This document shows positions 10,938-56,921 of a stretch of DNA of 64,000 nucleotides, piece by piece (the first letter of the stretch is position 1; each line of letters begins with the position of its first letter). Below the pieces are notes generated by a model. That model was given only the letters and a program-made list of their open reading frames with translations. It had not been told where the DNA came from and searched no databases. The translations under genes and the position numbers were made by a program. Source of the DNA: Tetradesmus obliquus (Eukaryota; Chlorophyta; Chlorophyceae; Sphaeropleales; Scenedesmaceae); contig CP126192.1 of the NCBI GenBank assembly GCA_030272155.1, positions 2,576,501-2,640,500 on the forward strand, written 5' to 3'.

Positions 10938-13900
10938 CTGACGCCGACAGCTGCGGCGGCGGAAGATGCAGTTGCACTGCTGGGCGCATCTGCGCCGTCT
11001 GGCTGACTCACCAACCAGTCAGCCACCCTGCTGCTGCTGTCGCCAGTGCTCACTGCCTGCAAGTCCTGCTGCGCAAGCTCAAGTGGGCCCACACTCGCCA
11101 GCGCCATTGCCGCAGTGTCCCTGCCGCTGCTGCTGCTGCTGCCAACGCCCAGCGCTGTCCCAGCTGCGCTGCCGCCTGCATGCTGCAGCAGCAGCTGCTG
11201 CTGCTGGTGCTGCAGCTGCTGCGCCTTGCTGTTGCTGCTTGACAGTGTGGCGCTTGTCGCCTCTGACGACTCTTGGATTGGATCCAACCTGGTAGATCTA
11301 GATGCAGCAGCCAGCAGCACAGAACCAGAGCTGGCAGCTGCTGCTGGCCCTGCAGCCGCCACCCCGCCGGCCTCAGCAAGCGCTGCCGCTGCAGCAGCTG
11401 CACCCGCAGCTGCGCCAAACCCTCCGATGTCTGCGCTGCTGTCAACCCCTGCTGCTGCTGCTGCTGCTGCTGGCACGCTGCGCGCCATGATCTGCGGAAG
11501 TGCTGGGCTACGCCCTGAGCCCTGCTGGGCAAAGGGGCTGGGGTAGCCGGGGGGTGGCGGGGAGTCTGGCGGCTGCGGCTCTGCTGCCGCATCCATGCTG
11601 CATGCCTGGCTGCCCTGGGCGGACAGCGAGGGCAGCTGCTGCTGCTGCTGCTGCTGCTGCTGTGGCTTGGCCACCTGCACGCAGGTACGGTAGGATAGCA
11701 AGGCAGTAAACCGTAGAAGGGCCAAGTCGGCAACTCTGCAGCATTCATGTTACTTGCAGTGCAGAGCTGCAAAGAAGCTGAAGTCGCGCGGACCAAGCAC
11801 ACCCGCGCTGGCTGGCAACAGACAGCTGCAGCCAATGTGGCATGCAGCAGCATACACGGACAGCACCCCCGGGCACCTGCTGTAGCAGTGCGTCAGCACT
11901 GCTGCAGCAACACCCACTGACTTTGCCCCAAGCCTGCACACTCGGGTAACAACCCACGCACCCCAGAGACACTGTTCATGGCTGCAAGCACCATTAGTGC
12001 AGCACCACCAAACGCACCTGGCTTTCCCACGTAGTGCCACTTGCAGGCGGCGTCGACAGCCCCAGTGTGGTCATCGACATGCCTGCCTCCGTGCTGTTGC
12101 GCGTGCTGAGTGTGAAGGAGCTTGGTGGGCTGCCAGCAGCCAGGTCAGAGCCCACCACAATGCAGCCGCCGCCAGGCACTTGCACAACAGACGCACCAGG
12201 TTGGCTCGCCGCTGCTGCTGCTGCCACTGCTGCCGGCGCCGGCAGCCCTGCCACTGACTGCGGAATCCCAAAGGGACCTGCATCCAGTGCATTGGTGTCA
12301 TCTGCTGCTGCTCCTTCGGGCAGTGGTAGCGGCAGGTCGCTGTCTGCAGTGGCAGCAGTGGTGATGGGGTGTGCTGGCCGCGGCAGCTCGTCCTGATCAT
12401 GCTCATGGTCCAGCTCCCCTGCTGCTGCTGCTGCAAAGGGAGCAGCAACATCAGCAGATGGGCCAGCAGCAGCTGCAGCAGGCTGCGCTGCTGCCTTTGC
12501 CAGGGCAGCAGCCGCACCAACCCCTGCCCCTGCTGCTGCTGCTGCCAGCGCCGCCCCTGGCAGCACGCCGTTCGCCCTGCGCGGTGCTGCTGCTGCTGCT
12601 GCTGCCGCTGCTGCTGCTGCTGCTGCTTTGGCCTTGACTGAGCCCTTGGTGCCTGCTGCAAAGGCCAGCATAGTGCTGCTCTGCAGGCGGCACTTGTTGA
12701 TGACCATGCGCCAGCGGATCATGGCTTTGAGGCGTGCAGCGATCTTGTCAAAGCCGGGGCGCTTGTCAGGGTCCTGGGCCCAGCAGTCCTCCATGAGCTT
12801 CATGTAGTTGCCCAGGCCTGCGGTGTTATTAAAAAGGGCGTTACTTGTTACTTTCGATGTTACTTGTGTTGATTGGATGCATATGGGCGCGGATGTTTGT
12901 GCCGAGTGCGTGCAGTGCGACGGCACAAGCTGCGCAGCAGAACATACAATCGTCAGCCAGCCACTGTACATCATCAGCAGCAACCAGTGTTTCTGCACAC
13001 ACTGCAATGCATCACCCACTGCTGCACAAGTTGGCTACAAGTGTGCGCACTCACAGGTGCTGCTGCTGGTGCCTGGTGGCAGCTCCTCCTCGTTGATCAG
13101 CTCAGGCCGCCCACCACTCATCACACGCAGCACAACCTGAACGGACACAGCAGCAGCAGCATTGCGGGGTTCATGCATGGCGTGGGTTCATGCATAACAC
13201 ATATTAGCGCTGGCAGTCCCGCACGTCTGACTGCACCACAGCTGCACCTGCCACTGCTGCGGCCGCAGCTGCCGCCGCCCCTTGCCTGCACCTGCTCCTT
13301 GGAAAATTGTAAAAAACGCACAAACATGCAGCCAATACCAGGCGTGATGCAAGCAAAGCCCTGCTGCCTGCACCCGGCCTCACCTGCTCCTTGGACAGGT
13401 CGTGGAAGGGCATCTGCCACGTCAGCATCTCGTACATGATGATGGCGTAGCTGTACACGTCACTCGCGGTGCTCAGCCGGTTCTGCGTCATCAGCTGCAG
13501 GCGGGCACATCGCAGTCGCAGCAGACAGCAGCAGTCGCAGGCAAAGTGTTGTGTTCAGCAGCAGCATGGGTGCGACATGTGAGTAGCTACGGCAGGAGGT
13601 GCGTGTCTGCAGCAGCATATCAGCTGATAATTCAACTGTGAACTGCAACAAATCTGCATGCCGCATGAAACTTTTGAATCCTCGTACATAGGCGGTGCAT
13701 GCACACTTGCTGCACCAAAAATCAATACAGCTGCTTCTTCTAAGCAGGGTTTGCTGCAGTTGATCACTGTTCAGCACGCACCTCCGGTGCCACCCAGCGC
13801 GGGTGCGTGATGCACTTGACCTGCATGCTGGCTTGCTGCTGCTGCTGCTGCTGCTACCATTGCCACAACAAATCTGAGTAAGTGCCATAAACATTGATGG

Positions 13901-14398
13901 AACTGCTGTGTCTCACCTCCGGCGCCACCCAGCGCGGGTGCGTGATGCGCTTGACCTGCATGCTGGCCTTGTTGCCGCTGAGCCGCTTGGTGAAGCCAAA
14001 GTCGCCAATCTTGACCTGCGCGGCAGCAGCAGCAGCAGAGAAGGCGCGTGGATGTTGGTCAGACTAGTGAGCGAGCAGCAACTGGCGTTCACCACACACA
14101 ACATCCTGCAGTCCTGGGCAGAGTCATGCGCATGCTGATCCCTAGGCATTTCCCGCCCATGCAGGCGCACAAACGGCCCGGCTGCCTACACTGCAGTTGC
14201 TGTTGCATAATCGAGTCGATGTATTGGTATATACTAAGTCGTTTTGCGCCTCACCCGCCCGTCCAGGCCCACAAACAGATTGGGGCTGCGCAGGTCGCCG
14301 TGCACGTAGTGGCGCTTGTGCAGGTACATCATGCCGGCTGCCACGTCGTGCAGCATCTCCAGCCGCCTGTCCCAATTGAAGTAGTTCATGTACTGCAC

Positions 14399-14430
<32 letters not shown>

Positions 14431-17400
14431 GAGGAGGGTCAGAAGCAGTGCAGTGGTCAGTCATGTCAACTGCCTGGCGGTGCCTTACGTGCCAGCAGGT
14501 GCCATCTAGGTGACTGGGAGCTTTGCAAAGCATCATCATTATCAAGCTGCAAAGGACGAGATCACCAAATGGATTGCAAGCGAATGCTTTGCAGTTGCTG
14601 ATGCACTGCCTTCACATCTCCAGAAACAGCATGCGCCACACTTCCACACACATGCCACACTTCCGCACCCACCTTGGTGGCCTGCCTGCTGTGCTGCGTC
14701 TTGGCGCTCAGGTTGCTCCACTGCCGCCGCGCCTTCTCCAGCATGCTGTACACGTTGCCGTGCCGGTAGTACTCCATCACCACCAGGGGCGGGTCCAGGC
14801 ACACCCCGCAGAAGCGCACCAGATTGGGGTGGTTCAGGCTGGTCAACAGCGCCACCTCCTTGCGCAACGCGTCCTGCACCCAAAGCATGGTATTGGAGAC
14901 GGGGACGGTGCAAACACTTAGCGTGGTTCAAAGTGTGCAGCAAATCGTGACAGGTTGGGGTGGTTGAGGCTGGTGAGCAGCGCCACCTCCTTGCGCAGCG
15001 CGTCCTGCAAGGGGATGCAGCAGTGGATAACGCAGAAAGTTTGCATGGTGCGAGTGTTGAAAGTTTAGGAGCCAGGTTGCGGCGGTTTATGCTGGTCAGC
15101 ACCTCCTTGCCCAGTGTGCTCTGTGGCAGCTTGCAATTGCAGCGGCAGCAGCGCTACATGTCAAAGGCGAGCAGAAACTACAGTTGCCGGCCACAACAGC
15201 CGCAGCGCAATCACTGCGCGACGTGTGCGACTGTACCTCCTTCCACCGACACCTCTAGGCACACCTGCGTGGCGATGTCTTAGTGAAAAAACCCACATTC
15301 CCACTGCGCAGCCGCCCCACTCACCCGTGCGCGCTGCATGGCCAGCTCGCTGGGGTTGTTGCCTGGCGCCACCTCACAATCATCAACAGCCAGGTACTCC
15401 TTGGCTGCAATGTCGATGTTGGTCCACGTGCCGCGGTACACCTGCGCCACACAGCAGATTGAAAACACAGCGACCATAAAACTCTGATGCCGTAGTGAGA
15501 AGCTCTGATACCCTAGTGAAAATCACTGATGCCCTGGTGAGTGCCACAGGCATTAGCAGATGCTGTATATGCGTCAAAACAACCAGCTTGTTGCATGTCA
15601 CATGCCAACAGCTGCTAGCTGCCATAATCCCGCCTATCCAACGCCTTTGCAGTGCGGCCGCCCGCCTCCCTGCCAGCGCTTCCTGCAAGCGTCTCCTGCA
15701 AGCACCTCCTGCAAGCGTTTCCTGCAAAGCTGGCCCGCACCTTGCCCTCTGCGCCGCTGCCGATGACCTCCTTGAGCACCAGCTCGCTGTTGCAGATCAC
15801 GTGGTACAGCTTGATGCCCTCGCCCGGCTGCACACTGTTGGTGGCCTCCAGGCTGCCGCTGCCACAGTTGTTGTTTAGGGAGTTGTTATTCTGGCCGCTG
15901 TTTAGTGAGCCCTGTCCAGTGCCCATGGAGTTTGGTGCGGCGCCAGGCGGCAGCAGCGGCGGGTACTGCTGCCGAGGCGGCAGCAGCAGCACGGCAGCAG
16001 AGAGCACAGCACAGCAGCTATGAAGAGGGATGTGAGAGACATGTGCCACTTTTGAAAGCTTGGGATAATGCGGCAGCTCACCGGCAGGCGCCCTGCGCAT
16101 CAAGCCAGGTACGTGCCGCACAGCAGTGCAGTGCCGCATGACATTATTGAATAATAATCATGTATGCCCACAGTGGTGCCTACAGGGGTGCCACCAGCGG
16201 TGACGCATGACACAACCATGTGTGCCCAGCCATCCATAAATAGCCGCACATGCAGCAACACCGTAGCCGCGCAGCAGCAGGTAACAAATACGCAGCAGCA
16301 GGTAACAGCAGTGCAGCGGCTCACCTGCATTGAAGATGGCGGCGGCCCTGTTCCTGCACCCATTGCCGGGATGAGCGGCAGGTGCCCTGTGTTGAGGTGC
16401 ATCGGCACACCCAGCCCAGGTGCATTGCTGTACATTTGCATGGGGTCGCTCTTAGGCTGCACCACCACTGTACCTTTTGCATCCACCTGCAAGCCTCGCT
16501 GCACTGCGCTTGCACGCGACATGGGGTTGGCTGAGGTTACAGATGGGACGGGAGGCCTGCTGCTGCCGCTGCTGATTGTGCTGCTCGCTGGCTGGGCAAT
16601 GATCCCGTTGTAGCTACTCATGCTGCTGCCATCAGGCGCAAAGGCACCTGCTGCAGCTGCAGCTGCTGCAGGCGTCATAGGTGAGCTGGGCGGTGGCTGC
16701 TGCTGCTGCGTGCTGTCCTGCAAGGACTGTGCATAAGTGCCGGACCTGCTAGCCGACTGACTGGTGCTAGTACCTCCAGAAGATGCGTCATCGCTGCCTG
16801 CCGCTGCGGCTGCATTTGCAGCTGCAAGCGCCGCTGCAGCTGCTGCTGCGATGTGAGCTGGCTCGCGGCCCCGCGCAGCTGCGGCAGCAGATGCAGCCGC
16901 ATCTGTTGCGATAGCCTGCTGCAGTGCTGCTGATGTGGACTGTGCGCTTCTGCGCACGCTGCTCTGCCTGCTGAACATGAGGCCATCGCCCTGTGCCTCC
17001 AGCTTGAGTCGCTCCGCTGTCCAGGACTTGACAGTAGCTGTGCTGGCAGTGACAAGCAGCTCCCCCTGCAGTTGGTTTGACAGGCAGGCAGCCGCAGCAC
17101 GGATTCATTGACTTGCTTGTGCACGTCAGGGGGGCCTGATACGTGGCATGCAGTCAGGTGTGCTAGCGCCAGCAGCGCTGTCGGGACGCTGTGCACTGCG
17201 CAAGCAGCCGGGCCACAAGGCACAAGCCCATGCCAACAGTCACTGGCTTCCTCTTTGCGCTGCGAGTTGCGCGCTAACAATGCGCTCGTGCAGCAACCCC
17301 ATCACACTACAGGCGGGTGCTCCTGCAGCATGTGCAGATGCCACGCAGCTCAGCTCAAAAACAGCATCTAACTACTGCTACTCACCAAGCTGCTGGCTGC

Positions 17401-20400
17401 CTCGATGCCGTTCTTGTGTGCCTTGATCTGTGCGGCGCGCGGCAGCCACGTGTGCAGCGCAGGCATGCCAGGCCCGCTGGGCAGCGCCCCGCCCCCCAGC
17501 GGCAATGAACTTGAAGCAGGCACGCCAACTGCCGCAAAGGATGGTGCCCGCCCTGCTGCTGCCACTGCTCCGTTGTGTGGTGCCGGCATGGGCAGGGCTG
17601 TGAGGCCGCCCGAGGAGTGAGCCAGCACTAGCATCTGCAGGTCTGGGAAAACGGCCATGCCGCGCACGGCGCTGCTTGCAGGACAGGCAGTTGCAGGACA
17701 CAGCAGGGCACACAATGGAAACACATCAGCCGGGCTATGTATGGCGCAAGGAGGGTGCACCGCAGGAAGCAGAACAGGACGTTTGAGACTGCAGAACAAA
17801 CATGCCAGACAACAGAGCAACAATAGCCATTGCTATGGCGGTGCCTGCTGTTGGAGTGCCGCTCACCTCTGCGGCTTGGCTTCCCCAATCACACACAGCA
17901 GGTGCAGCACGCGTGGCGACACAGCCGAGCGCTGCACACCCTTCAGCTGCCACAGCAGCACCTGGCCCCGCTCATGGCCAGTCAACAGCCTCCAGCTGCT
18001 GTCTGCTGCACTTCTTCCTGCAAGCTGCTGCCCTGCTGGCAGCTGCCCCACCATGCCTCCTGCCTTTGCTGCTGCGTGTGCCATGACGCTTGCAGGGACA
18101 GTGGCGCGCGCGATGGGCGCAGCAGCATAGCCCACTGCTATGCCTGTGGCCGGGATGCCTGGCACTGCACCTGCTGCAGGCCCGCCCTGTGCAAAGCTCG
18201 CGCCTCCTGCAAGTAGACAATGACAAAAACAATACAGCCTCATCAAAGCAGCACCCAAAGTTGCCCTACGCGACCACGCACCACCTGTGCCAATGCAACA
18301 CACACTTGACATGAGCAGGTAGCAGCTGAAAGCTGCTACCCACGTGCACAAGTCTGCACCGACCAGCCAGGCATGCCGCAGGATGAGCACGCAAGCAAGC
18401 ACACAAGCTGGCAAGCAAACACATGCACACCCTGCCCCAGGCCTCACCTGCAAACGCTGCTGCTGCCTGCTGCTCCGCCTCATCTCCCTCCCAAGGCAGC
18501 ACTGCGAAGCAGCGCGTGGCGCCAAAGCTCTCGCAGTTTGCCACCTCCAGCTCCTGGTAGTTCTGGCTGTTGAAGACTGTGATGCTGTCCCATGCCTTGC
18601 TGCCACTTGCAAACACAGCAGGGCCCTTTCCAAGCATAGCATGGACGGGCACACACTTCCCTGCAGCGCCTGGCGGGCCGCTTGCAGGAGCAGCAGCAGC
18701 TGCTGCTGCAGCTGCAGCGGGCCCCTGTGCTGTGGCCAGCCGCACGAGTGCATGCGCCTGCGGAGGAATGACTCTGAATTTCACGCCCACGCGCTCTGTG
18801 ATGATATCTAGGGTGAGCACGCGGATGATGCCTGCCTCATCACCCACCCAGCAGCAGTGCGCTGCATCAACTGCCATGGCACGCACGGGCAGGCCTACTT
18901 CTGTGGCCAGCGAGGCAAAGCCCCAGCGGCCACGCGCATGCAGCAGCACGCTGCCATCTGCACAGCCGGTCCATACGTTGAGGGTGGTGGGGTCAAATGC
19001 GACACACGTCACCACCTGCGCCTGGGGTCAGGCAGGCAGCGGCGGGAAAAACAATCAGCATGTGAATCAGAAGTCGGCAGCGCATGAAGCTGTGGCTGGA
19101 GAGTCAAGGTAAGTATCCAACAAAGCAACCAGCAGTAAGCTCCTGACATACCAGCTGCCAGCCCACAGGCCTAACCCAGCAGTGGCCCTGTGTAGTGCTG
19201 CGCAATCTGCATGCACACACCCGACCATGCACCCTTGCACAACGCCGAGGCGCCCCCTGACACCAGCACACACTGCAACACGCGCATGCAGCTACTGATT
19301 AGCTGCTACAGCTTGGCTTGAGAATCAACCGCACCTTCTCAGTCAGCTGCACCTCCGTCTTTGCTGCTGCGCTGCAGCCAGGGTACAGCTCCACCTTGCG
19401 GTTCAGCCCCACAAGCAGCGTAGGGCTCGCAGCATAACCACTTTGTCCCGGCGTCAGCGCAACCGTAGACACGCGCACGCCCCTATCCCAGCTGAGGTGC
19501 AGCTCTGAGGGGCCCTGCTGACTGGCCTGCTGCTGCTGCTGTGGCTGCTGGTAGGGGTCTTCTTCGTCGCTGCTGGTGAGGGCATCCACATCTTCCTTGG
19601 CCATGGCTGTGCGTGCAGCAGCCAAGCCATCGCGCGCTTCCTGCAAGCATATCACAGTATTGCATAACAACGCACAATGTATCATACTTCAGCGCATGCT
19701 GTTGCAGACCAAGCTTACAGACTCCCTTGACTCTGTGCATGCAGCTGTAGTACAGTGTGCATAGTGTTTTGAGAAGTACTGCTGCTGGCATCACCTTGAA
19801 GATCTTCTTGTGTGGGTTGACCAGCATGCGGAAGAAGTTGCCCTTGGACTCGCGCGCAGCAGTAGCCACCTTGCCCTGCACGCCCGCCCACCAACAGTTG
19901 AATGTGTTTGGTAAGCGGAATAGGCAGGGCCATACAAATGTGCATGTGACCAGCACAGCTGCCATGCTGCTCACGAATGGCTAAGGATCTGCTGCATGAA
20001 CAGCTGCCAAGCTACACCGCTGTAGGGACTGGCATTGCAGCCGCAGCCCCTGCTACAGCCACTGCAGGCGGAGCTGCTGCTGCCCCTCCCGTTGCTGCCA
20101 CCCATTGTGCTGCTTCGGCTGTGGCTGCCCCTCAACATGCAGCAGACAGCTGCTTACAGTGCCGCTGTGGTGCCTTATTCTTGCATGCTGCTTTCATGTC
20201 CTTGCCCTGCCGCACCTGCAGCACCTTGAGCGAGTCCTCAGCTTTGAGTGCTGCCCTGCCGATGGTCTCTGGCAGCAGGTTGCACTCGGGGTGCAGCGCC
20301 TGCGCAGTTTGTCATTGCATACGACGCACAGGCGGCAGCAGCAGGCCACAAGCTTTGTGGTGGTGTTGCGCATGCAAACAGGCAGCTTTGCAGGAGACAC

Positions 20401-20722
20401 TCATAGACATGGTATCCATGAAGCTGTGGGGTGCGCACTTTGCAGTGCAGCTGCATGTCTGTATGCGCGATGCATGCAGAGCACCTGCTGCACAGCAACA
20501 AGCAGCAAGCTTGGCCGAACCGCCAGCAGCAGCAGCAGCAGCAGCAGCACTTGCCTTGTCCTCAAACTCCCGCAGCAGCTGCAGCGCTTCATCTACGACT
20601 GCGTTGCTGTCATCCCGCAAACTGGCCGACTTGCAGGAGCCCGCAAACACACGCAGCTCCTCGGCAGCCCGCTTTGCTGCGCTGATGCGCTTCAAGTGCT
20701 CATGCACGTCCACAGTAGCCAT
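8333..20722 (-). CDS. WD40-repeat / TKL protein kinase fusion, 17 exons, ~2563 aa
   Basis: Probable signalling kinase with a built-in beta-propeller. Exons (minus): 20722-20555, 20299-20216, 19875-19795, 19640-19335, 19015-18448, 18206-17867, 17671-17386, 17065-16325, 15968-15741, 15441-15325, 14873-14673, 14392-14255, 14015-13917, 13494-13384, 13136-13055, 12817-12018, 11674-8333; together exactly 2564 codons ending in TAG. Residues 1-140 are helical (HEHLKRISAAKRAAEELR). About 180-650 hold WD40 blades (CVAFDPTTLNVWTGCADGS, GHERGQVLLWQ, LLVTASTATVKSWT). The kinase domain spans about 922-1225: IGSGAEGKV loop, IAAKEY (K948), YVHGDLRSPN (catalytic D1073), DFGFTK (D1091), WVAPE, DVYSYAIIMYEML, R1203. 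HGD replaces HRD. The tail (1240-2563) is Ala/Gln/Ser-rich with three YGAFA repeats and DSPF motifs. Exon 1 uses a GC donor. TKL membership is inferred from the loop and DLRSPN motif. Confidence 0.85.
13289..13303 (-). repeat. Short shadow of kinase exon 14 end and donor
   Basis: Fifteen bases identical to 13381-13395, which is the last twelve bases of exon 14 (CCAAGGAGCAG preceded by T) plus the start of its GT donor, lie 92 bp downstream in the intron. It is short, but matches the pattern of the longer copies in this gene. Confidence 0.4.
13779..13834 (-). repeat. Exon shadow: end of kinase exon 13 with donor
   Basis: Near-identical copy (three differences by eye over 56 bp) of 13914-13970, which is the last ~54 bp of exon 13 (residues ASMQVKRITHPRWVAPE) plus its GT donor. 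It lies 135 bp downstream in the intron. The copy reads ASMQVKCITHPRWVAPE and keeps GTGCGT after the APE codons, so it could in principle be spliced. The first half of the exon, with the DFG motif, is missing, so it cannot replace the true exon. Confidence 0.8.
14951..15008 (-). repeat. Exon shadow 1: start of kinase exon 11 with acceptor
   Basis: Copy of 14821-14878, the acceptor and first ~53 bp of exon 11 (DALRKEVALLTSLNHPNL), about 52 of 57 positions identical by eye. It lies ~130 bp upstream in the intron. The acceptor TTGCAG and reading frame are intact, but no good donor follows, so it is probably not an exon. Confidence 0.8.
15073..15115 (-). repeat. Exon shadow 2: degenerate start of kinase exon 11
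   Basis: A third, more diverged copy of the same exon start, ~122 bp further upstream. In the exon frame it reads roughly LGKEVLTSINRRNLAP against LRKEVALLTSLNHPNLVR. A codon is missing and the acceptor is gone. Confidence 0.55.
15481..15543. repeat. ~21-bp tandem repeat in kinase intron 9
   Basis: Three copies of a CTCTGATGCCCTAGTGA-like unit in a row in the intron between exons 9 and 10. A second simple repeat (TCCTGCAAGCG units, about 15674-15728) lies in the same intron close to the exon 9 donor. Confidence 0.6.
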
Positions 20723-21793: not shown

Positions 21794-22674
21794 ATGAACA
21801 GAAGCAGCAGCTGCTACACGCCTATTAGTTACAGCACGATGCCCACTGATGGCCTTGCCAGTGCTGTGCTGCCAGCACTGGCAGCCATTAGCTCATTTGA
21901 CTCGTGGCTCTCCAGCTCAAGCACAGGGTACTACATACGCCTGTATGGCTACTTCTATGCCATATGCATTGTCGCCTCGTTGTGGACCTTCCATGTAGCA
22001 AGGAAGCTGCAGCCAGGGCTGCAGCGCGCACTGGTCTGCCTGCCTATCGTGGTGCTGCAGCTGGCTGCCACACCTGTGCTGGTGGACCGCCATCGCACAG
22101 CAGTGCTGGTCGTGCCTGTGATGGGCATCCTCTCCTTGGCAGCTTTCAAGGTAAACACGCTGCTGCAAAGCACTTCACTGCAAGCATGCACCAAGGTACA
22201 TGTTTGCAGAAGGCAAATGGTTGCGCCAGCCTGATTGCAGCAATGCAGCTAGCTCACATGGCAGCAGTGCAGCTGGCACTGCCCCATGCATAGCATGCTC
22301 ATGACCTGTGATGAAACATGGGACAATGCAGCATGCACATGTGCCCCGTCACACCATACACCCCTGTGCACTCCTGCCTCAGCTGCAAGGTGGCACTAGA
22401 CTGCCAGGGACAGGATGTGGTAGCGCGCATCAAGCCTTCAACAGCCAACACTGCTGCTGCTGCTGCTGCTACTGCTGCTGGTGCTGCTGCTGGTGCTGCT
22501 GCTGCGTGCGACATGCAGGTGGCTGCCTTTGCCATGGGGCGCGGCCCCCTGGCCCTGCCCGACTGCCCCTGGCTGCAGGAGCTGCCAAGGTTTGGCGCCG
22601 TGCTCAGCTTCCCAATCATCCCCAGAGCAGGTGAGGGCTGCTGACAGCAGCAGCCAGCCCATCAACAACCAAAC

Positions 22675-44530: not shown

Positions 44531-47500
44531 ATGGTGTTGCACGGAGTTCCGGATTATGGGCTTGCAACTGGCTGGAGCGGAACAGTACATGTCGTGGAGG
44601 GCGAGCTCGACCCTGTGCCACCACTTGTACAGGCAAGGAGACGGCAAACGGACGGGAGCATAAGTGTAGTTCTTCAAGCAGCGTCTAGGCGTGACAAGGC
44701 TGTTGTTCAGCAGCTGATGTACAGCTGCACTGCCTGCCACTGCTGCTGTCCTGCAAGTTAAATGTCAGGGCGTTTAGGCCTGCACTCTTGGGACAATCAC
44801 TCTCACGCCAACGGAGTCATCTGTAAGCCCTCGGTACGTTGCTTTGGGCACGATCGCTGCTGCAGGGCCCACCCTACCCCGCTCAGCAAGGCTCTGCGCT
44901 GCTTGATGACCTGAAGCAGCGCTACTGCAGCTGGAACCTGCCAGACACGCTGGGGTCGGTTGGGGAGAGGGGTGAGCAAAGCAGCGGGGTAGCTGGATGT
45001 ATTCAGATAGTACAAGGGCTAGGAAGCAGCAGCACGCATGGCAGCTGCCAAGCAAATGTAGGCAAGCTTACATTTGTGCATGCCTTCAACAGCAGGTGCT
45101 GTCAAGGCAGCTCTGTGTTGTGTACTGCTCCGGCCAGAAGTCACTGGCAGACTTCACTGTTTGTAAGTCCTGGCAAGTAGCAAGCACCCTTGTTGGTCCA
45201 TACTACATCATGCTGCTGCCGCCGCCATTGCCACCGCTCCCCTGTGCGTGCAGGCCCGGTGCTGTCTGCCGTGTTTGCCGACCCTGCTGCGTCGCGCACC
45301 TGCCCCTCACTGCCACACACCGCTGTCAGCCCAGCATTGCCTGACAGCAAGACTGGACAGGTGCAGTGGTGCATGGCAACGTCTCGCTGCATAGCTGGCA
45401 CTGTTTCGTGGATCTAGGATGTGAATTTCCTTCAGCTTCTGTGGTTTACATACCTAGCAGACATGCCACAGCCTTAACTGCTGCCAGAATAAAAGGCAAT
45501 TGGGACGCCTAGGTTGCTCCACCGCTGATGCTGCTGATTCTTGACGATTTAGGTTAACATGCACAGCCAGCTGTGCCTCTGACATTGCATCAGCGGCTGC
45601 TGCTGCTGCTGCTGCCAGGTGGGCTATGCTGAGGTGGCGTTGTCCAGCCTGGACCCTGCCTCAGCTGATGCGCAGGTGCTGAGTCAGCGCCTGGCAGCAC
45701 GCCAGCCGGGCACCGACACCTGGCGCGGCTTCAGCGTCAGCAGCCCCTTCCTGCCAGGTAATAATGATGATGATGATAATCTAAGATGGTGCCAGGACCC
45801 ACACACACACCCCCCCTCCACCTGTATAGCTCAGAAATGTTAGGGGCGCAGCCTGTGACTGCGCTTTCAACCACTCCGCCCAGCCAACAGTTGCTGTGCT
45901 TGACGGCAGCAAGCGCCTTAGTGGAAATTTCACTTCACAACATCGTGTATTATTTGTGTTACAATCAACATGTGCAGGCGGGGAGTCGCTCATGGCCAGC
46001 CTGTCCAGCAGCTGCATGGCGGCAGCAGCGGCAGCCAGCAGCGGTGGCTGGCTGGCCCTGCTGGAGCAGCACCTGGGGGCGGGCGGCGGCGCAGGTGGGC
46101 CGGCGGGGGCCGATTGCCTTGATTTCTTTTTCTGGGAAGGACGGGGACGGGGGTATAGTTGTGATTGTGCAGGGTGGGCTGGAGTAGTGATGGCTTGTGA
46201 TGGCTGCATCGTAAAGCTGTGCTGCTGGGCCGTGTAAGCAAAGCAATGGTGTGCAAGCAGATGTTTAGTTTAGTCTGCGACTGAATGCAAGCAGTGGCGA
46301 TGAAAAGCGCTTGATGTTGATGGTGCTGTGTAGGAGGTGACCTTGGGATGTTGCAACAGGCAAAGCCGGGCGTCACTGTGCTGTGCGACTGGTGATTGTT
46401 CAAGCAGATACTATTGTGTCACTGGACTATGCCATGTTGGTAGCTCAGTCACGCACGTTATGTACGCAACCCTGCTGCTTCTGCCGCTGCCGCCGCTGCT
46501 GCTGCTCCTGCTGCTACCAACAGACAGCGGCCTGCTGCCTGCTGTTGCGCCGCCTGGCCTGTCCCGAGGCATGTTTGGCGCCTGGAACATGCCTGAGGAC
46601 TTAAGGCCCTCAGGTGGGGGTTGCCCGGGGCAAAACATGCAGTGCCGCGAGTGGTCAACGTTTGAACGCGCAGCCTTGGACACATAACTTCAGGCCGTCT
46701 TGTGCAGTGAGCAGTGCAGATGAGCATCTTGTCAAGACCATTATCTGCCTATGTCAAATACGGTCTCTGCTGGCAGACATATCCAGGAATCAGCTCCCAA
46801 GGGCTTATGTACCGCCAATATTTATTCCACTGCCGGCTGTGTATGCTGCCGCAGAGGAGGAGCTCTTAGCAGCGCTGCCCACAACAGCTGCGGCAGCACC
46901 TCTGCAGCAGCAGCCTGCCAGCTCAGGTGCCAGCACCACAGCAGGGCCCCTGCTGGGCGCTGCTGCCACTGCGCCGCTGCCGCCGGCTGCTGCTGCCGCT
47001 GCCGCCGCCGCTGCTGCTGACGCCAACCCTGGCGGCATCTTTGATGGGCTGTGGAGGTTGCAGCAGGAGGCTGGCCAGGTGGGGCGGAGGTGGCTGCTGT
47101 TGACTGTTTGTCGGCAGTTTGAGGCGTATTGTGTACTGCTTCCTGGCAGTTTGAGGCGATGTATGTACTGTTGTTGGCACTTTGAGGCAATGCGGCAGGT
47201 GGCAGGGCAGGTGTGGTGTGGGAAGTAATCATGTCACTGCTGCTGCGGTGTGTCATGTCGTGCAGATCCGCACGAAATGCACAGCCGACGATGCAAATGC
47301 TGGGTTTGTCATGCTGTGGTGCAGATTGAGTCATCCGAAAGTGAGCAGGAAGAAGATGAAGCAGAGGAGGAGCCAGGAGCAGCAGAGCAGACAGCAGCAG
47401 CAGCAGCAGCAGATGCTTCCTCTGCTCTGGAACAAGCAGCAGAGGCAGCTGCTGCTGTCCCTGAGGGGATGACAGCGGATGGTGCCATTGATGCAGCGCC

Positions 47501-50500
47501 AGCTGCGGACAGTGTGGACAGCCTGCTCGCTGCAGATGGGGTGGTGCAAGCTGCTGGGCGGGCAGCAGCAGCAGCAGCGGCGGCTGCAAATGCCAAGGTA
47601 CGGCTGCTTGTAACGCATCGTGCTGCTGCTGCCTGCTTGCCAGCTAGTGTGTTGTCTGTAGCATGGCCGGCTGTTGCTGTAGATTAGGCATTTGCACATT
47701 GTGCTGCAGCCGCCATTGCTGAGTGTGGGCGCCGCTTGTTCAGCTCTTGTTCAGCTGCAACAATGGCGCTTCAAAGCACCCATACTAGGACTGCCATGGC
47801 ACCTGTCATGCGCCAGACAGTGCATGCAACACAAGCGCCCTCATGTTAATCTATTTAATCTCAGCTGTATTTCTTTACGACTTGCGGCTGTTGCGTCTGC
47901 TGTGCCTCCTGCCGCAGCCGCCTCGGGCGCGTGGCGCAGCAAGCGACACTGACTTTGCGGTGCGGGGTGGCATCAGCGACCTGGCTGGCGCATGGGCCGC
48001 GCTGAAGCCCAGCCTTGCGCTGTCTTTTCCGTTTGAGCTTGACACCTTTCAGAAAGAGGCGGTGCTGCATCTGGAGGCGGGGCGCTCGGTGCGTAGCCTT
48101 GTGATCGTGCTTGCTGCTGTTACTGCGTGCTGTGTACTCAAGTTGTCAACATGCATATCTAACAGGCGACCTTCAGGCCTATTGCTGTGTTGTTGGGCAG
48201 CTGCTCGCGACTGTGCCTTGGCTGTTGCTGCACGCTGCGGGCCTGTGCATGTTATCTGTTTGGGGGTGTTGAGTTGAGTTGGATGTCCGCCTTGTGGTCA
48301 AATGGCTGTGCATGTGCTGCCATTTCCCGCAGGTGTTTGTTGCAGCGCACACCTCTGCCGGCAAGACAGTGGTAGCCGAGTACGCGTTTGCGCTGGCGGG
48401 TGCACACGCCAGCCGCGCGGTTTACACCAGCCCCATCAAGACCATCAGCAACCAGAAGTTCAGGGACTTCAGCGCCAAGTTCGAGGTGGGAGCATAAGCG
48501 GGAACTTGCATAGGATGTAACAGCTGCCGTGCGTGGGATGTTGTTGGGGGCTCCGTCCTGTGCGTGGTTAACCATCCTGTGCACACCTGGTGCCACACAG
48601 TGATGCCTGTTGAACGCCGACTCAAACCTGCCTGCTGAAAGCTGACCCTGATACGCCCCCCCGCCCCCCCCCCCCCCCGCGCGCTGCTTGCTGTCTTGCT
48701 GTGCTGTGCGTGCCACCGTTGGAACCCATTGCACGATGCTGGCTTTTCTACATGTGTAGTCAGGTCTCAGTTGTCAATGTGTGTGCATTTGTTCGAGCGC
48801 CTGCTGTGTGCTGCTGCTGCTGCTGCTGCCAGGTGGGGCTGCTGACTGGCGACGTGCAGATCAACCCGCAGGCGCCCTGCCTCATCATGACCACAGAGGT
48901 GCTGCGCAGCATGCTGTACAAGGTGCGACACAGCTTTATAGAAGCATCAAACAACAGTAAAAGCCGTTTTGCAGCATGAGCATGCCATGTGCAGGCATTG
49001 GAAATCAGCGCCTGCTGCTTCACGACAGTCGCCCCGCAATAGTGTCCCTCTGCATACACTTTGTACACACACTCTGTCTTCGTGACCCCTTTTGCAGGGC
49101 GCTGATGTCATCCGCGACATCGAGTTTGTCATGTTTAGTAATGTGCACCACGCTTTCCACCGCTCACCCGCTGTTTGCCTGTCCCGCAGGGCGCTGACGT
49201 CATCCGCGACATCGAGTTTGTGGTGTTTGACGAGGTGCACTATGTGAACGACGCGGAGCGCGGCGTGGTGTGGGAGGAGGTGATCATCATGCTGCCGCCC
49301 CACATCACCATCGTGATGCTCAGCGCCACAGTGCCCAACGTGATGGAGTTTGCCAGCTGGGTGGGGCGCACCAAGAACAGGGTCATCTACGTGACAGGTG
49401 CGCGGCATGCATATGTCTTCAGCCTGCAGACGTTTGCAGTACAGATGCAGATGTTGCAGCAGCGGCAGGTTCAACCAGGAGCATCGCACTGGCTGCAGAT
49501 CACAGCGTCAGACTGCCGTATTGACAGTCTAAAAAGCACGCGCATGTTCTGGAAATTGCAGCTGCTTCAGCAACTATTACACAAACCCTCCTCATGGCCA
49601 TGCTGTTGTCACGCACATGTACCGCGCAGGCACCAACAAGCGGCCCGTGCCGCTGGAGCACAACGTGTACTATGCCGGCGAGATCTACCAAGTCATGTCC
49701 GGTGACTCAACCTTCAACGCTGACAGCATCCGCAGAGCAGCAGCAGCACACCGCAAGAAGACCAACCCTGACGCAGCAAAGTCAGCAGGGGCAGCAGGAG
49801 GCGGCGGCAGGGGAGGTGCTGCTGCACGGCCTACTGGCAGGGGTCAGGCGCAGGGCCCTAATAGGGGCGGTGGGGGCGGGGGTGGGGGCGGCAGGGGCTA
49901 TGGCGGCAGGGGCGGCGGCGCTGATGGCTTCAGGAGACAGCTGCAAGGTGGGCTGCTGCTTGCTGCTGCTGCTGCAGTGGTGTCTTGCAATAGAGTTCCT
50001 GCAAGCGGCGCGTAATGCAGCACCAGCGTTGGTGGTGCTGTGCATGCATGCATGCTGGCGCACTGCACGGAGCATCAGCGGCAGCCTCTACTATGTGCAG
50101 CAAACAATGTGCATGCGGCCATGTACTGCAGCGAGGCGCCCTCCGTCAGTGATGCGAGGCCGTACTTTGCTGCACCCCTGCCACAGCTACCACTTGCCGG
50201 CGCAGCACATACATACAACCGCCAAATACACTCGACTCACTCTTCTTGGGCCGTCCTGCAGGTGGCGGCGGCGGTGGCGGCGGCAGCAGCGACCGCGCGC
50301 AGCTGCAGGACCTCATCCAGCTGCTGCGCAAGCGCGACCTGCTGCCAGTGGCCTTCTTCACCTTCAGCAAAAAGCGCTGCGACGCGGCTGCTGACGCGTG
50401 CAGCGCGCTGGACCTGACCACGAGCGCGGAGAAGCACACGGTGCACGTGTTTGTGCAGCAGGTGCTGTCACGGCTGCGGGAGGGCGACAGGGAGCTGCCG

Positions 50501-53500
50501 CAGGTGCGCTGCTGTGGCAGTGGAGCGCAAGCGAGCTTGAATCAGGTTGTTGAAGCAGCGCACGTCATTTGGTTTGTGGTGGTGTGTTTGTTTCACAAAG
50601 CGTGCGAGGATGCACATGCGTGTGGGGGTGCAGCTTGTGCAGCGGGCCGCGCGTTTGCGGTGACGACAGGGGCTGCACAGCTTACCCAACCCACTGCCAC
50701 TGCTGCTGCTGCTGCTACTTCATCTGCAGATCATGCGGCTGCGCGACCTGATGCGACGCGGTGTGGCTGTGCACCACGCGGGGCTGCTGCCTATCATGAA
50801 GGAAACAGTGGAGATGCTCTTCTGCCAGGGCTACATCAAGGTACGGCTGTGGCCGGCTGCTGCTGCTGCTGCACTCAGATAACCACAGTTCAAGCCAAAA
50901 CGTGCGCATGCGACTGCAGCGCAAAAGTGCTGGTTGCAATGTGTGATCGTCATACTTGTCAGCATCAGCTTGACAATGGCGGCTAGTATCTAGTTTTAAA
51001 ATAGTTGTGATCCGCAAACCAAAACTCCATCTCAGCCATGTCGTGCTGCCGCAGGTGCTGTTCTGCACGGAGACGTTTGCCATGGGCGTGAACGCGCCAA
51101 CGCGCACGGTGGTGTTCCACGGCCTGCGCAAGCACGACGGCCGCAGCTTCAGGACGCTGCTGCCGGGCGAATACACACAGGTGGGTTGCACACTGGCTTC
51201 TTACTTCCTGATCTAACCTTGTTCCTGTACATCTATGTGGACTCTTGTGTCATAGCTGCCTCAGCGCTTGCAGGGTAATGCTAATGGTGGCTTGGGCCCT
51301 CACACTGTGCTGTGCTGTGTCGTGCCGTGCTGTGCAGATGGCTGGCCGTGCGGGGCGGCGTGGCCTGGATGCTGTGGGCATGGTAGTCATTGCGGCGTGG
51401 GAGGAGCCGCCAGGTGACTGGTGATGTGGTGCAGTGTGCTGTGCTGTGATGCTGTGATGCTGTGGTGCGGCATAATCAGCCTGGATGCTGTGGGCATGGT
51501 GGTCATCGCGGCCTGGGAGGAGCCGCCAGGTGACTGCTGTGCTGTCGTGCGGTGTGCTGTGCTGTGATGCGGTGTGCTGCGCTGTAAGGCTGTGATGTAG
51601 CATTGTCAGCCTTGATGCTATGTGCATGGTGGTCATCGCAGCGGGAGGAGCCGCCAGGTGCGGCCTGGGTCGTGATGCGCTGCTCACATGCACATTCGTG
51701 AATGTGATGTGCACATGCACACTAGTAATTGATGTTACCTGTGATGGCTGGGGAGGGTGCATTTTGCCATGTTTGTGTCGCAACTGCTAGGCATGGAGCG
51801 CAAGTGATTACTACAGCCACGCCTTGTTACTCGTGCTGATGTGTGTGGTGAACTTCAGCTTTGACGGCACTCGCCATCTGCCTGTTTGCTTTCCATGCCA
51901 CCATCAGCAACCAGACTAACATTACTCCTGCTGCCGCCACCGCCGCCGCTGCTGCTGCTGCTGCTTCCTCCAATTCTGCCAGGCGAGGGCGACCTGAAGC
52001 AGCTGCTGCTGGGCAAGGGTGTGAGCCTGAGCAGCCAGTTCCGGCTGACCTACTCCATGATGCTCAACCTGCTGCGCGTGGAGGACCTCAAGGTGGGCTG
52101 CACACGGCTGCTCTTTTGGTGGCGCCAATTGCCTGTTTTTGAAGTCTGCTCTGGTCTCTTGCTGTCCAGATTGGATACGTGGCTCAGTATGTGTGGTTGT
52201 CGTTGTGTTGAGGCCAGGGGCTTGATCAAGCCATCCACATGTCACTGCAAGTATCACCTGCTGCTCCAGATGAACTGCTTCCACGCCCTCAGCTTGTCCG
52301 TGCGATGCCTTGCGGTCACACACACGCTTGACATGTTTCAAGAGCAGATTGGTTACATGCAATGTCAATCGGTAACCACTCCCAACCGCGCAGGTGGAAG
52401 ACATGCTGCGGCGCTCCTTTGCCGAGTTCCACGCGCAGCGCGCGCAGCCGGGCAAGTCTGCGGCACTGGCGGCAGGCCAGGCGCAGCTGGCAGCCTACCA
52501 GGGCAGCCGCTGGCCGGGCTGCCTGAAGGGCTGCAGCAGGGGCGAGCTGCAGCAGTATGTCGACCTGGGGCAGCGCATCGATGACATCAGCAGCCAGCTG
52601 CAGGTGCGTGGGGTACAGCGTTGTGGGGTGGGATTAGGCGCGAAGGTTGCGACTTTTGCTGATGCAGGCGGGTTTTTGGATGGTAATGGTGTCGCGCTGG
52701 GGTGCTGCTCTACTTGCGGATGCGTTGCTGTGCCATGCAACGTTGCAGGTGCTTTTCTAGTGCCGAGCGCTGCTTTGACACATGATAAGCTGCCTGGATT
52801 TGCAGCCACGGGTATCCAGCATATAAGTACACAGTGCCCAGCATTCAGTTCGGGCCGCCAAGCGCTACAGCATGCTTTTGTTTTGCTGTGCTGGCCGCTG
52901 CTGTGCTTGCAGGAAGCTGTGCTGGGCAGCCGCAGCATCCACAGCCTGCTGCAGCCAGGCCGTGCAGTGCTGCTGCAGCAGCCCGCCAGCGGCCTCACTG
53001 AGCTTGCAGTAGTGGTGGGCTCACCTGACACGCTTGATCAGCTGCTGGCTGCTGCTGACTCAGCACGCGGCGGTTTTGGAGGCCCCAAGAAGGGCGGTTT
53101 TGGGTCTGGGAGCGGTTTAGGGTCTGGGGGAGCTGGCGGTGGCGGTGTGGGGCCTGAGAGGGTGATGTGGTTCTTGGGGCTGCATCAGCCTGGGCCCCTG
53201 GATGAGCCGGCGGCTGATGACTCGGCAGCAAGCGCTGCAGCAGCGGCAGTGATCGGTGAGGAGGGTGGTGGCGACGCAACTGTAGTGTTTGGGATATTTG
53301 CTGGTGGATGGTTGATGCATCTGCTGTGTGCCGCACGCTGCATCGTACCGCGTGCTTTTCAGCTGTTGCCCACAGCAGCACCGCATGCTCTGCGTCTACA
53401 TCACGGATAACATTGCTGCCATGTGCTGATGCGGTTGTCAGGGCAATTGTTTGATTGCCTCTGAATGCTTCATGTTCTGCTGCTGCTGCCTTTTGCTGGC

Positions 53501-56500
53501 TATGCTGCAACACCTGCTGCTGCTGCCCCTTCAGAGGAAGAGTTCCAGGGCTTCAAGCTGAAGGGGGGCAGCAGGGCAGCAGCAAACATACCAGGCCCGC
53601 TGCCGCGCTACGGCAGCAGCGCGGGGCTGCAGTACATGCTGCTGGCAGCGCCAGCCAAGCAGGTGAGCTGGCTGCACGGTTGAGGCTTCCTGCTGCATTC
53701 CTCAGATGCTCCATGCCAGCATGGTGGCTGGGCGTTAAGAGGTGTGCAAGGCTGGAAGCTGATTCCACCCACCCAGAATCCCTGCCTTTGTTGCTGCTAT
53801 TGTCGGCCCAAGCTGCTGGCTCCTGCAGTGACACACTGCCCTGAGGTGCCTGCTTTGCTTTCTGCCCAAAATCCCAACCTTCTGTGCTTTTGCTTGCAAC
53901 TGCTGTTGTCTGCTCTCAATGTGTCAGATTGTGGGCATCTGCCGTGCCAAGCCGCTCAAGGTGGAGCCGCTGGAGGTGCTGGAGGAAGGAGGCAAGGGCA
54001 TAGGGCCGGCGCTGCGGCAGCTGCAGAAGATGCGGGTGCGTGCAGGCTGTCTTGTACATATGCCCTGTGATGAACATATGCAATCCAGTAAACAGAGATT
54101 GTTGTCAGAAACAGTTCTCGACTACAGCTGCAAGCAGGCTACACGCAGGCCAGCAGGCAGCAGCTTTCTGCGGCGCAGCACATGGAACAACGCTAGCGGC
54201 AGGCACTACAGATGACCCTGTTCCTATCCCTGCTGCCGCTTTCAGCATGCATCTTTGTCTGCCTGCGATGTTACTCTGCTTGCGTCGTTATCTGCCTGCG
54301 CTGCTCTGCCGTGCCGCCTTGCAGGAGGAGGCTGCTGCCACAGGCCTGGGTGATCCTGAGCAGCTCGACCTGCGACAAGAAGCTAAGATCAACAGCCTGG
54401 AGCTGGCCGTGCTGTTCAGCGAGCGCACAGCGCTGCTCAGCGCACGAGCAGCGATGCCAGTACACACCTGCCCAGGTGCGTGTGCTGCATCAGCACTTTG
54501 TACCTATGCGCCATGCACTGATGAAGGCCGGTGAATTGTGGCGCTACACCTGCATCTGCTGCATGTTGTGCGGGCTGGTTGATAGGCAGGGCTGGGATGC
54601 TGATAGAGCTGCCTGTGCATGCGTATTAGCTTGCACAGCCACCTCCAAAGCTGAGAGTGTGCCCTGTGAGCTCCTGTCAATGGACCGCCTTGACTATGCT
54701 TTGCTTCTTGCTGCTGCTGCCGCCACTGTGTTTGATGCCTGCCGCAGGCACGCCTGAGCAGGCCGCGCTGGTGCGCAGCGAGCTGCTGCTGACTCGCCGC
54801 CTCAAGGAGCTCAGCCATGAGCTGAGCGATGCCAGCCTGCAGCAGGTGGGACTTGCGGTTGTTTCAAAGGAGCTCCCTGCTGCGGCTTGCTGTTGGCTCT
54901 TATGCTGCCTCGTGTTCACCTGCTCCGCCCGGCACATGACAACAGCAACACCATTGTACTGCCTACGGTGCTATGTTGTTTGATGTGCGTCCACAGCTGG
55001 CCGTGTTTGAATGTTCCAGTTTTGTACATCCGTGCGCCACATGCTGCTATTGCTGCTGTGTGCTGTTGCAGATGCCTGAGTTCCACCAGCGCGTGGGTGT
55101 GCTGCAGCAGCTGGGCTACGTGTCACCAGATGGCACGGTCACGCTGAAGGGCCGCGCAGCATGCGAGATTAACAGCACACAGGTGCGGTGGCATGTGTTC
55201 ACAGCCGCGCAGTAGCTGTTGCTTGCAGGAATGCGGCAGCACATGCAAGAGGCGGTGCAGCTACTTCAACGCCTGCTGCGGTAGCGCTTCCTGCATCTGC
55301 CGTTACTTGCTGCAGCAGCACGTATCTCGGCAGCACCTGGAGTTTGGTGTTTTGTCTGAGGGCATTGTGCGTTGTGGCTAGTGCTCAGCTGCAGTTGAAC
55401 CCTGCAGTGTACATAGCGGAACAGGCAATAATTAGCTGCTGAATGGGAGGCGGGGCTCCTGCTGACAGCCTTGAGTGCCTGCTGCTGATACTGTTTGCGC
55501 TGTGCCTGTTTCCTTCCTCCTTTCAGGACGAGCTGCTGTCCACGGAGCTGCTGTTCCGGGGCCTGCTGTCGGGGCTCAGCCCCGAGGAGGCGGTGGCGCT
55601 CATGAGCGCACTCGTATTCCAGGTGCGAGCCGAGATGAAAAATGACATATATGTCATACAAGCGCAGTGGCAAACACGCAGCTGCGCAGGTGGCAAGCTG
55701 TTGAAGTGAACCACTTCAACTGCGTGGCGCTGGGGCTGCAGATGCTGCAGCGCAGCGCAGCCTCTGCCTGCCTTGCAGAAGCCGTCCTGTACTTTGTTTG
55801 TCCATCCCCTGCAAGATGCATCTGCGCCAGTGCTTGGCATGTGCTATATTAAACTGCACATACTGGGCATTGCCCCTGCAGGAAAAGAGCGACGTGGAGC
55901 CTGAGCTGCCGCCCGCGCTGGCGTCTGCGCGGGGCCAGCTGGTGGGCCTGGCGGGGGAGCTGGCGCGGCTGCAGGCGGCTGCGGGGCTGCCCATCGCGGA
56001 GGAGGAGTACCTGCGGGAGGTGCTGCACCCGGGGCTGATGCAGGTGCGTTAAAATGCAGAATGTAACGTGTTATAACATGGCACGGTGTTTGGATGCTGG
56101 AACGCCATCAGTCGAGGGTGGACAGCGTGAGGAGCGTTGCGCACACAGCTGTTGTGCGAGTGAGACTGAGTGCCCAGATGGGTGAATGAACGATGCGAGG
56201 CTTCTTGTGCATATCAGATCATCACGCCTGCTCCTGCTGCCTGCCGCCTTGCTGCCTCTTTCCATGCTGCAGGTTGTTTACGTGTGGGCGCGCGGAGCTC
56301 CTTCTCAGCCGACACCACCCTCACTGACGTCATGGAGGGCTGCTGTTTCTTACTACTGCCTCGTCACATGCTGCCCCCATGTTATGTTGCTGCAGGTCGT
56401 GTATGAGTGGGCGCGCGGCACTCCCTTCTCAGCCATCACCCCGCTAACAGACGTCATGGAGGGCAGCATCGTGAGGGCAGTGGTGCGGCTGGACCAGTGC

Positions 56501-56623
56501 TGCAGGGAGCTGATGGATGCTGCGCGTGTGATGGGAGACACGGGGCTGTTCAGCTTGATGGAGGCGGCCAGCGGCAAGATTCGGCGGGATATCGTGTTCG
56601 CTGCAAGCCTGTATGTGGCATAG
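44531..56623 (+). CDS. SKI2: SKI2-type RNA helicase (exosome cofactor), ~29 exons
   Basis: ATP-dependent 3'-5' RNA helicase of the cytosolic SKI complex, feeding mRNA to the exosome. Exons end at about: 44531-44632, 44866-44958 (or 44971), 45096-45162, 45254-45360, 45619-45757, 45978-46094, 46524-46613, 46855-47078, 47325-47597, 47918-48088, 48333-48485, 48833-48922, 49190-49397, 49630-49947, 50262-50503, 50730-50840, 51055-51180, 51338-51413, 51983-52092, 52394-52603, 52913-53255, 53535-53662, 53928-54035, 54325-54475, 54748-54845, 55072-55182, 55527-55622, 55882-56043, 56396-56623; ~1488 residues. Motifs: [69 protein letters not shown], then a DSHCT-like end. Tracks plant and animal SKI2 nearly residue by residue. 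A Gly/Arg-rich (RGG-like) stretch ends exon 14. The N terminus ([15 protein letters not shown]) resembles plant SKI2; the exon 2-3 junction is unresolved. Exon 1 uses a GC donor. Confidence 0.92.
48656..48678. repeat. C-run in SKI2 intron 11
   Basis: About 22 C residues broken by a single G. A likely spot for sequencing or assembly error and for G-quadruplex formation on the other strand. Confidence 0.8.
49098..49155 (+). repeat. Exon shadow: start of SKI2 exon 13 with acceptor, DEVH lost
   Basis: Copy of the start of exon 13 (49190 onward), 92 bp upstream, preceded by its own TTTTGCAG acceptor. The first 33 bases differ at one position ([10 protein letters not shown] intact), then the copy decays: DEVHYV of the true exon reads SNVHHA. 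Using this acceptor would delete the Walker B motif. Confidence 0.85.
51479..51535 (+). repeat. Exon shadow 1: end of SKI2 exon 18 with donor
   Basis: Copy of 51363-51419, the end of exon 18 ([17 protein letters not shown]) with donor GTGACTG, ~116 bp downstream. All coded residues are the same. The intron sequence after both donors is also alike, so this is a tandem duplication that straddles the exon border. Confidence 0.88.
51609..51663 (+). repeat. Exon shadow 2: end of SKI2 exon 18 with donor
   Basis: Third tandem copy, ~129 bp after the second: [10 protein letters not shown], then a small deletion, then EEPPG and a donor GTGCGG. More diverged than shadow 1 and out of frame at the deletion. 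Confidence 0.8.
56273..56340 (+). repeat. Exon shadow: start of SKI2 terminal exon with acceptor
   Basis: Copy of 56396-56465, 123 bp upstream, with an intact CTGCAG acceptor. It starts [10 protein letters not shown] against [10 protein letters not shown] in the real exon. A one-base loss then shifts frame, although the DNA still matches through GACGTCATGGAGGGC. Confidence 0.85.
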
Positions 56624-56718
56624 CTCCGCGTGCAGGGGTGTGCAGGCGATGGCAGGGGAGGGATTTGGCGGTACACTGCGCCAACAGGCAGCGCAGCTAG
56701 TACTGTGTGTAGGTGGTA

Positions 56719-56921
56719 CAGTGGTGCAGCTGGACCAGTGCTGCAGGGAGCCAATGGAGGCCGCGCGCGTGATGGGCGACACCGGGCTGTTAATAGCTGA
56801 ACGTTCAGCTTGATGAAGGCCGCCTTCAGCTTGACGAAGGCCGCCTTCAGCTTGATGAAGGCGGCAATTGGCAAGATACAACGGGACATTTGTTTTGCTG
56901 CGAGCCCTGTATGTGGCGTAG
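56719..56921 (+). repeat. Degenerate second copy of the SKI2 terminal exon, with internal 21-bp triplication
   Basis: Downstream of the SKI2 stop, 56719-56921 repeats 56478-56623 ([19 protein letters not shown] ... final TAG). The copy holds a TAATAG and a 21-bp unit (TTCAGCTTGATGAAGGCCGCC) three times at 56804-56866 where the real exon has one. It would lie in the 3' UTR or just beyond. Confidence 0.88.

Follow-up and report, generated by a model that had tools for sequence, protein, structure and literature searches.

The window analysed here is a 64-kb stretch of the genome of the green alga Tetradesmus obliquus (contig CP126192.1, positions 2,576,501 to 2,640,500). It contains two genes, a kinase gene on the reverse strand and a SKI2-like helicase gene on the forward strand, in which the ends of several exons recur as short partial copies in the adjoining intron or flank. 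These copies, called shadows below, also occur at other loci of the genome, more often beside exon borders than elsewhere once simple repeats are set aside, and where they differ from the exon the differences follow the codon. Many of them encode almost the protein sequence of the exon, which is not expected of duplications in ordinary decay.

Local direct repeats were scanned across the window, and positions 13000-24000 and 44000-64000 were read directly. The main sample of 314 kb comprised the window (W in the positions below), 200 kb of contig 1 (C1) and 50 kb of contig 6 (C6), out of a genome of 104.7 Mb in 17 contigs, and an extra sample of 33.7 kb covered ten further loci; positions in contig 5 are marked C5. 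The genome has at least 52 matches to the chlorophyll a/b-binding family, which together with its introns fits a photosynthetic eukaryote. Outside the SKI2-like gene, exons were called by a self-trained exon/intron hidden Markov model (HMM) seeded with the 20 exons of that gene. The HMM recovers 17 of the 20 seed exons exactly, and some of the additional exons that it calls are the shadows themselves; real and shadow copy were assigned by a forced parse, in which one of the two copies was forbidden to be exonic.

Exon-border copies in the kinase and SKI2-like genes

The features of the window are as follows.

13289..13306, reverse strand: probable downstream shadow of kinase exon 13384-13494 (exon 13), period 92
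13779..13832, reverse strand: downstream shadow, end of kinase exon 13917-14015 (APE motif) with donor, period 135
14951..15009, reverse strand: upstream shadow 1, acceptor and start of kinase exon 14673-14873, period 131
15073..15106, reverse strand: upstream shadow 2 of kinase exon 14673-14873, decayed, period 122
47918..56623, forward strand: presumed SKI2-like DEVH helicase gene, 20 exons modelled, host to three shadow-bearing exons
49094..49148, forward strand: upstream shadow, acceptor and start of exon 49190-49397, period 92
51479..51539, forward strand: downstream shadow 1, end of exon 51338-51413 with donor, period 116
51581..51660, forward strand: downstream shadow 2 of exon 51338-51413, decayed, period 130
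56265..56343, forward strand: upstream shadow, acceptor and start of last exon 56396-56623, period 123/124
56719..56921, forward strand: downstream shadow, rest of the last SKI2-like exon, ending at the stop codon

The gene at 47918..56623, which we take from its motifs to be of the SKI2/DEVH type, has 20 modelled exons that, when joined, are open in one frame up to the stop codon, so that the exons there are real independently of the predictor. Two of its short exons, searched alone, gave no Pfam match. The first shadow, at 49094, matches the sequence at 49186 at an offset of 92 (85% of 55 bases) and has lost the DEVH residues at its inner end. The shadow at 51479 matches 51363 at an offset of 116 (93% of 61 bases), and the 3 codons of 16 that differ from the exon are all synonymous. 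Its decayed neighbour at 51581..51660 shows 82% identity over 62 bases at an offset of 130, with matches at 246 as well, and by eye it carries a deletion and two amino-acid changes. The shadow of the last exon (56265-56343 against 56388-56467) is 84% identical and by eye has a one-base deletion. The copy downstream of that exon, 56719..56921, aligns at offsets of 241 (89% of 73 bases) and 297 (77% of 61 bases); it had been described as carrying a donor site and instead ends, as read by eye, at the stop codon. The shadow-bearing introns are 267, 569 and 352 bases long, with periods of 92, 116/130 and 123, respectively.

In the kinase gene, exon 14673-14873 matches PF07714 (E 9.4e-10), while the Pfam kinase match of exon 13917-14015 (E 0.0014) lies below the gathering cut-off. 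The latter exon has a shadow of 96% identity over 54 bases (13779-13832 against 13914-13967, offset 135). Upstream of the former, 14951-15009 matches 14820-14878 at an offset of 131 (92% of 59 bases) and spells the same amino acids across 18 codons, and the second shadow, at 15073-15106, retains 79% of 34 bases at an offset of 122. Five of the six exon borders for which the sequence-only reading had named copies thus have clear ones. The sixth, kinase exon 13, falls short of this: its shadow consists of a single run of 15 identical bases at an offset of 92 (13289-13306 against 13381). Of 400 sampled exon edges, 24 attain a score of 15 in their own intron and 2 in a foreign one, so that the exon 13 shadow is probably, though not certainly, real.

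A paralogous kinase gene at C5:887234-890312 has partial copies beside several exons. One exon end recurs there three more times, at intervals of about 158-170 bases, and the HMM calls these extra copies in-frame exons, 72, 54 and 48 bases long.

Frequency and anatomy of the copies

A repeat scan over the 314 kb (offset 40-600, score at least 19) gave 199 local matches against 26 at control offsets, and in many of these the end of an exon, together with a few bases of intron, recurs in the adjoining intron. The 33.7 kb of further loci gave 47 local matches against 0 in the control, in five of the ten loci, so that the copies recur on two further contigs and in the extra sample. With the coding-repeat arrays at C1 126-136.5 kb left out before counting, there are 135 events in all, 70 of which touch a splice junction and can be scored.

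The link to exon borders was measured with 44-base probes from exon edges, exon interiors and introns, each compared with its own neighbouring intron. After simple repeats had been removed and overlapping matches collapsed (score at least 16), the 834 exon-edge probes yielded 37 unique events, 35 of them at a spacing of 83-155, in agreement with the narrow period band first noticed in the window. Exon-interior probes gave 6/431 and intron probes 13/583, 6 of the latter at a spacing of at least 80 and at most 3 independent of shadows. At spacings of at least 80 the edges therefore exceed the introns (35/834 against 6/583, p=3e-4), and more so once shadow-shadow pairs are removed (35/834 against 3/583, p=6e-6). 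The spacings themselves also differ, with 35:2 above and below 80 for edges and 6:7 for intron-only repeats, which are mixed and often shorter (p=5e-4).

Without the filter, at a score of at least 20, the counts are 37/834 for exon edges, 2/431 for exon interiors and 11/583 for intron probes; when only introns of at least 210 bp are taken, edges (13/543) and introns (11/583) are nearly equal, which weakens the border link. The suspected focus of duplication on exon borders is thus supported on the sampled loci with a dependence on filtering: the border excess is real, and how large it is turns on the treatment of simple repeats. The first count of clusters gave 30 at junctions, 14 intronic or other, 4 exon-only, 3 intergenic and 1 terminal; the excess is taken here from the probe test, in which it is smaller and filter-dependent. 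Exon-only cases would be expected in 17% of random units of this size, and one of the 4 exon-only clusters is truly a border case.

Shadow number varies strongly between genes, the shadow-rich loci L029-L031 adjoining the nearly shadow-free L032-L033. At W 34165-34356 a predicted intron contains a 93-base duplication of 98% identity, a rare intron-only pair with spacing above 80.

The copies are direct: 144 event groups have the same orientation as the exon, 99 of them lying away from the coding arrays at C1 126-136.5 kb, whereas 11 clusters are inverted, of which 8 fall within those arrays. They show both the direct orientation and the adjacency of small tandem duplications. In 29 curated events, which span 15-75 exon bases at one border, identity is about 0.90 across the first 55 exon bases and 0.93-0.97 at the first three intron bases, where GT/AG is kept, and it falls to a background of about 0.3 from about intron base 10. 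Of 68 scored junction events, 12 are clearly similar over the whole unit, intron included, and resemble plain tandem duplications. The remaining 56 bear out the early impression that exon similarity is kept and intron similarity mostly lost; they retain at most a weak intron residue (mean z 1.01 from the border, 42/56 positive; from intron base 20, mean z 0.60, 38/54 positive), so that the introns probably belonged to the duplicated unit.

The copies had been said always to carry the splice site. GT/AG is indeed mostly kept, although this is partly forced, since a duplication wholly inside an exon breaks the protein, and at three terminal exons the similarity stops at or near the stop codon instead (W 56719-56921, C1 166221, C6 20512). 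By eye, the inner end of the copy lacks a splice site in several of 24 alignments, and periods that are multiples of 3 are not in excess. C1 2627 is a recent exact, array-type event (offset 137, 100%), C1 161619 and C6 10781 are near-identical exon copies with little intron homology, and decayed shadows contain stop codons (C1 146757 and, by eye, C1 166221) or a frameshift (W 56300, by eye). Splice sites as read by the HMM have acceptors ending in CTG-rich tracts with CTGCAG and donors of the form CAG|GTGCG, so that both borders carry CAG motifs, which also fill the introns.

Codon pattern of the differences

For the codon test, 43 events without clear intron homology were used, one per junction. 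Shadow and exon differ at 40, 17 and 73 sites of codon positions 1, 2 and 3, respectively (about 487 sites each), or by 72 synonymous and 54 nonsynonymous differences. The synonymous share of 57% compares with 27% expected for a neutral shadow alone and with 43% if the shadow is neutral and the real exon changes only synonymously (p=7e-4); under context-dependent mutability the excess remains (p=0.002). In the 28 events whose shadow the unconstrained HMM does not take for exon, the counts are 24/12/48 by codon position and 50:31 synonymous to nonsynonymous (p=3e-4). Differences phased by the codon point to constraint at the protein level or to exchange with functional exons, rather than to selection for decoy splice sites, and the decoy function put forward in the sequence-only reading is not supported.

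In two arrays on contig 6 all codon differences are synonymous. The array at C6 26736-27523, which we take to be PGM-like from its motif, consists of four tandem copies in which all 14 of 14 variable codons are synonymous. All three possible 2:2 groupings of the copies occur among its sites, so that no single tree fits without repeated change. Its introns differ at 12/159, 14/157 and 21/155 bases and its third positions at 10/34, 11/34 and 4/34; third positions exceed the introns in two of the three pairs whose introns can be aligned (p ~0.001) and not in the third. Near C6 23.5 kb, three exon copies differ in 4 of 28 codons, all synonymously. Polarising by eye in small families hinted that shadow-specific changes are synonymous too, with which C6 23696 disagreed.

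Origin of the copies and competing explanations

The explanation that we favour, tentatively and short of an even chance, is that small tandem duplications arise across splice borders and that their exon part is kept protein-like by exchange with functional exons. Direct duplications with a period of about 80-155 would arise repeatedly in genes and would survive wherever one exon with its splice site is left intact. The intron part of the pair would then diverge freely, while functional exon copies, by gene conversion or unequal exchange, would hold the exon part to the protein, the exchange being confined to the exon as the only stretch still homologous. Exchange partners would include diverged exon copies of other haplotypes, and shadows that escape exchange would decay. 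This would cover most of the observed features. What we infer from the patterns above is that events lacking intron homology also began as tandem duplications, that exchange takes place, and that synonymous variants come from outside. That the shadows are standing partial back-up copies, which exchange sequence with the working exon from the next intron, is a more doubtful proposition.

Queried with the SKI2 gene, the PGM-like array and four pieces that each joined a shadow to its spacer, the genome showed no second locus with copy and spacer among the matches, which makes copying from a paralog unlikely for the pieces searched. The other matches were paralogous genes (76-85%), one 51-base match of 84% outside the spacer and short stretches resembling simple repeats. 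A fifth gene, at C1 161.5-166.5 kb, gave 81 further matches, mostly to one short stretch. A stretch of about 100 bases at C1 ~166075-166176 has many dispersed matches in the genome (72-100%), some of them in local arrays.

Several observations weigh against the exchange explanation. The synonymous bias is absent in the 15 events in which the shadow is read as exon (22:23). Both synonymous-only arrays of contig 6 can be read as in-frame exons, partly with weak sites or tiny filler exons, and plain coding constraint could therefore explain those two. The 553-base tandem duplication at C1 85911-87185 has 4 synonymous and 12 amino-acid changes, its exon part (16/380) having diverged more than its intron part (6/342). 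Exchange between repeats 100 bases apart should often delete them, and their persistence is not accounted for, nor is the period band. Plain tandem duplication would lead one to expect intron homology in the youngest border events, whose exons are 95-100% identical, and most of these have none. Finally, the exon calls outside the SKI2 gene are predictions made from the sequence by our own HMM.

A mosaic of haplotypes or strains in the assembly accounts for almost as much as exon-limited exchange does, although we consider it unlikely. Each shadow would be the exon edge of a second, diverged haplotype, left by an unresolved overlap of 80-155 bases, and only exon parts would be recognisable because introns differ between haplotypes. 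This would produce the synonymous bias, the splice signals and stop codons as borders, the invisible intron-only cases and few exon-interior ones (6/431); it would also cap the period near 155 and leave no source locus to be found. It does not fit the decayed shadows with stop codons (C1 146757, C1 166221), a frameshift (W 56300) or lost DEVH residues (W 49094), nor the arrays in which three or four copies have introns that are homologous as well. The 314 kb contain no N and the assembly has 17 long contigs, which speaks against short-overlap joins.

The copies might instead be used, as decoy or alternative splice sites or as alternative or extra exons, with use also setting the spacing; as a general account this is a little less likely still. 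The preservation of GT/AG in the curated events, with the adjoining intron not kept, would follow, as would the border excess and the spacing band, and in 24 of 54 junction events more than half of the shadow is taken for exon when the predictor runs unconstrained. For the two arrays on contig 6, use as exons would account for the codon pattern too, and these could be real extra exons. A decoy, on the other hand, does not require conservation phased by codon, shadows that the predictor does not take for exon have the stronger synonymous bias, and both the copies that lack an inner-end splice site and the periods modulo 3 speak against use.

Neutral tandem duplication with survivorship, in which exon-only events are eliminated and exon similarity lasts longer because only the shadow copy changes, accounts for the geometry and for how rare exon-interior copies are. 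It agrees with the small number of exon-only events, with the 12 plain duplications among the 68 junction events, with the small difference between edges and introns in the unfiltered test, with the exact copy at C1 2627 and with the neutral-like changes at C1 85911. The expected difference between exon and intron is at most about two-fold by estimate, yet exons of 95-100% identity stand beside introns without clear homology; intron-only duplications are spaced differently, and the synonymous excess is not explained. This account is disfavoured for most events and improbable as a whole.

Least probable among these is a copying process that starts at the splice signals, such as repair synthesis primed at CAG-GTG/CTGCAG, and proceeds into the exon only. 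The sharp average border, the direct orientation and the near-identical copies at C1 161619 and C6 10781 suit it, whereas the weak residual intron homology, the synonymous bias, the three copies that run to a stop codon or close to one and the abundance of the same motifs in introns do not.

Other candidates were rejected: snap-back repair, since inverted copies are rare; a paralogous gene as template, the matching loci L035 and L037 (84-85%) being separate genes; whole-exon duplication followed by truncation, since many periods fall short of the length of the exon predicted; and in-frame cassette exons as a general rule, as inner splice sites are not general (by eye), although with 24 of 54 shadows read mostly as exon they are possible case by case.

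Known systems each share some of these traits. Tandem exon duplication and mutually exclusive exons (PMC9013439) likewise place direct exon copies, often unannotated, in the neighbouring intron, but shadows are mostly partial exons at one border with a period often shorter than the predicted exon, and the 29 curated events are not complete-exon duplications with both splice sites; array-type events such as C1 2627 and the two contig-6 arrays readable as exons are exceptions. Intron gain by tandem duplication with AGGT (PMC3443670, PMC2891723) is likewise short, involves splice signals and leaves exonic sequence within an intron. There, however, the intron is the duplicated unit, whereas shadows sit inside longer introns; intron length does not equal the period in the shadow-bearing SKI2 introns, and AGGT occurs in few exons only (by eye), so that this candidate was also rejected.

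Fill-in duplications at double-strand breaks (PMC8355091) are short and tandem as well and are a plausible origin of the copies, the available part of that source describing neither a link to splice borders nor exon-only preservation. Introners, found mainly in fast-evolving lineages such as green algae, are likewise short sequences carrying splice sites, but they form multi-copy families, some with target duplications of 3-9 bases (PMC9860276). Four spacers of about 37 events, queried in a search that skips common words, were not found elsewhere in the genome, and introner insertion was rejected for this reason. No report of the present pattern appeared in the literature listings searched, which is not proof of its absence.

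A further repeat of the window lies at W 4597-5576, where a unit of 151 bases forms an array of about 6.5 copies with ends like inverted repeats (GTGTCACAGTTGCCCCC ... GGGGGTAACTGTGACA); it is possibly a small mobile element in tandem.

If the pattern is an assembly effect, it has a recognisable signature that is able to mislead studies of intron evolution. If it is real, about 4% of the tested exon edges (37/834) carry a copy, or some ten thousand genome-wide by extrapolation only, and introns would be a reservoir of protein-constrained exon pieces, from which alternative splice sites, new introns and gene conversion might come. Should the shadows be back-up copies, non-translated DNA of this alga would be under selection at the protein level and would record synonymous variants of its exons.

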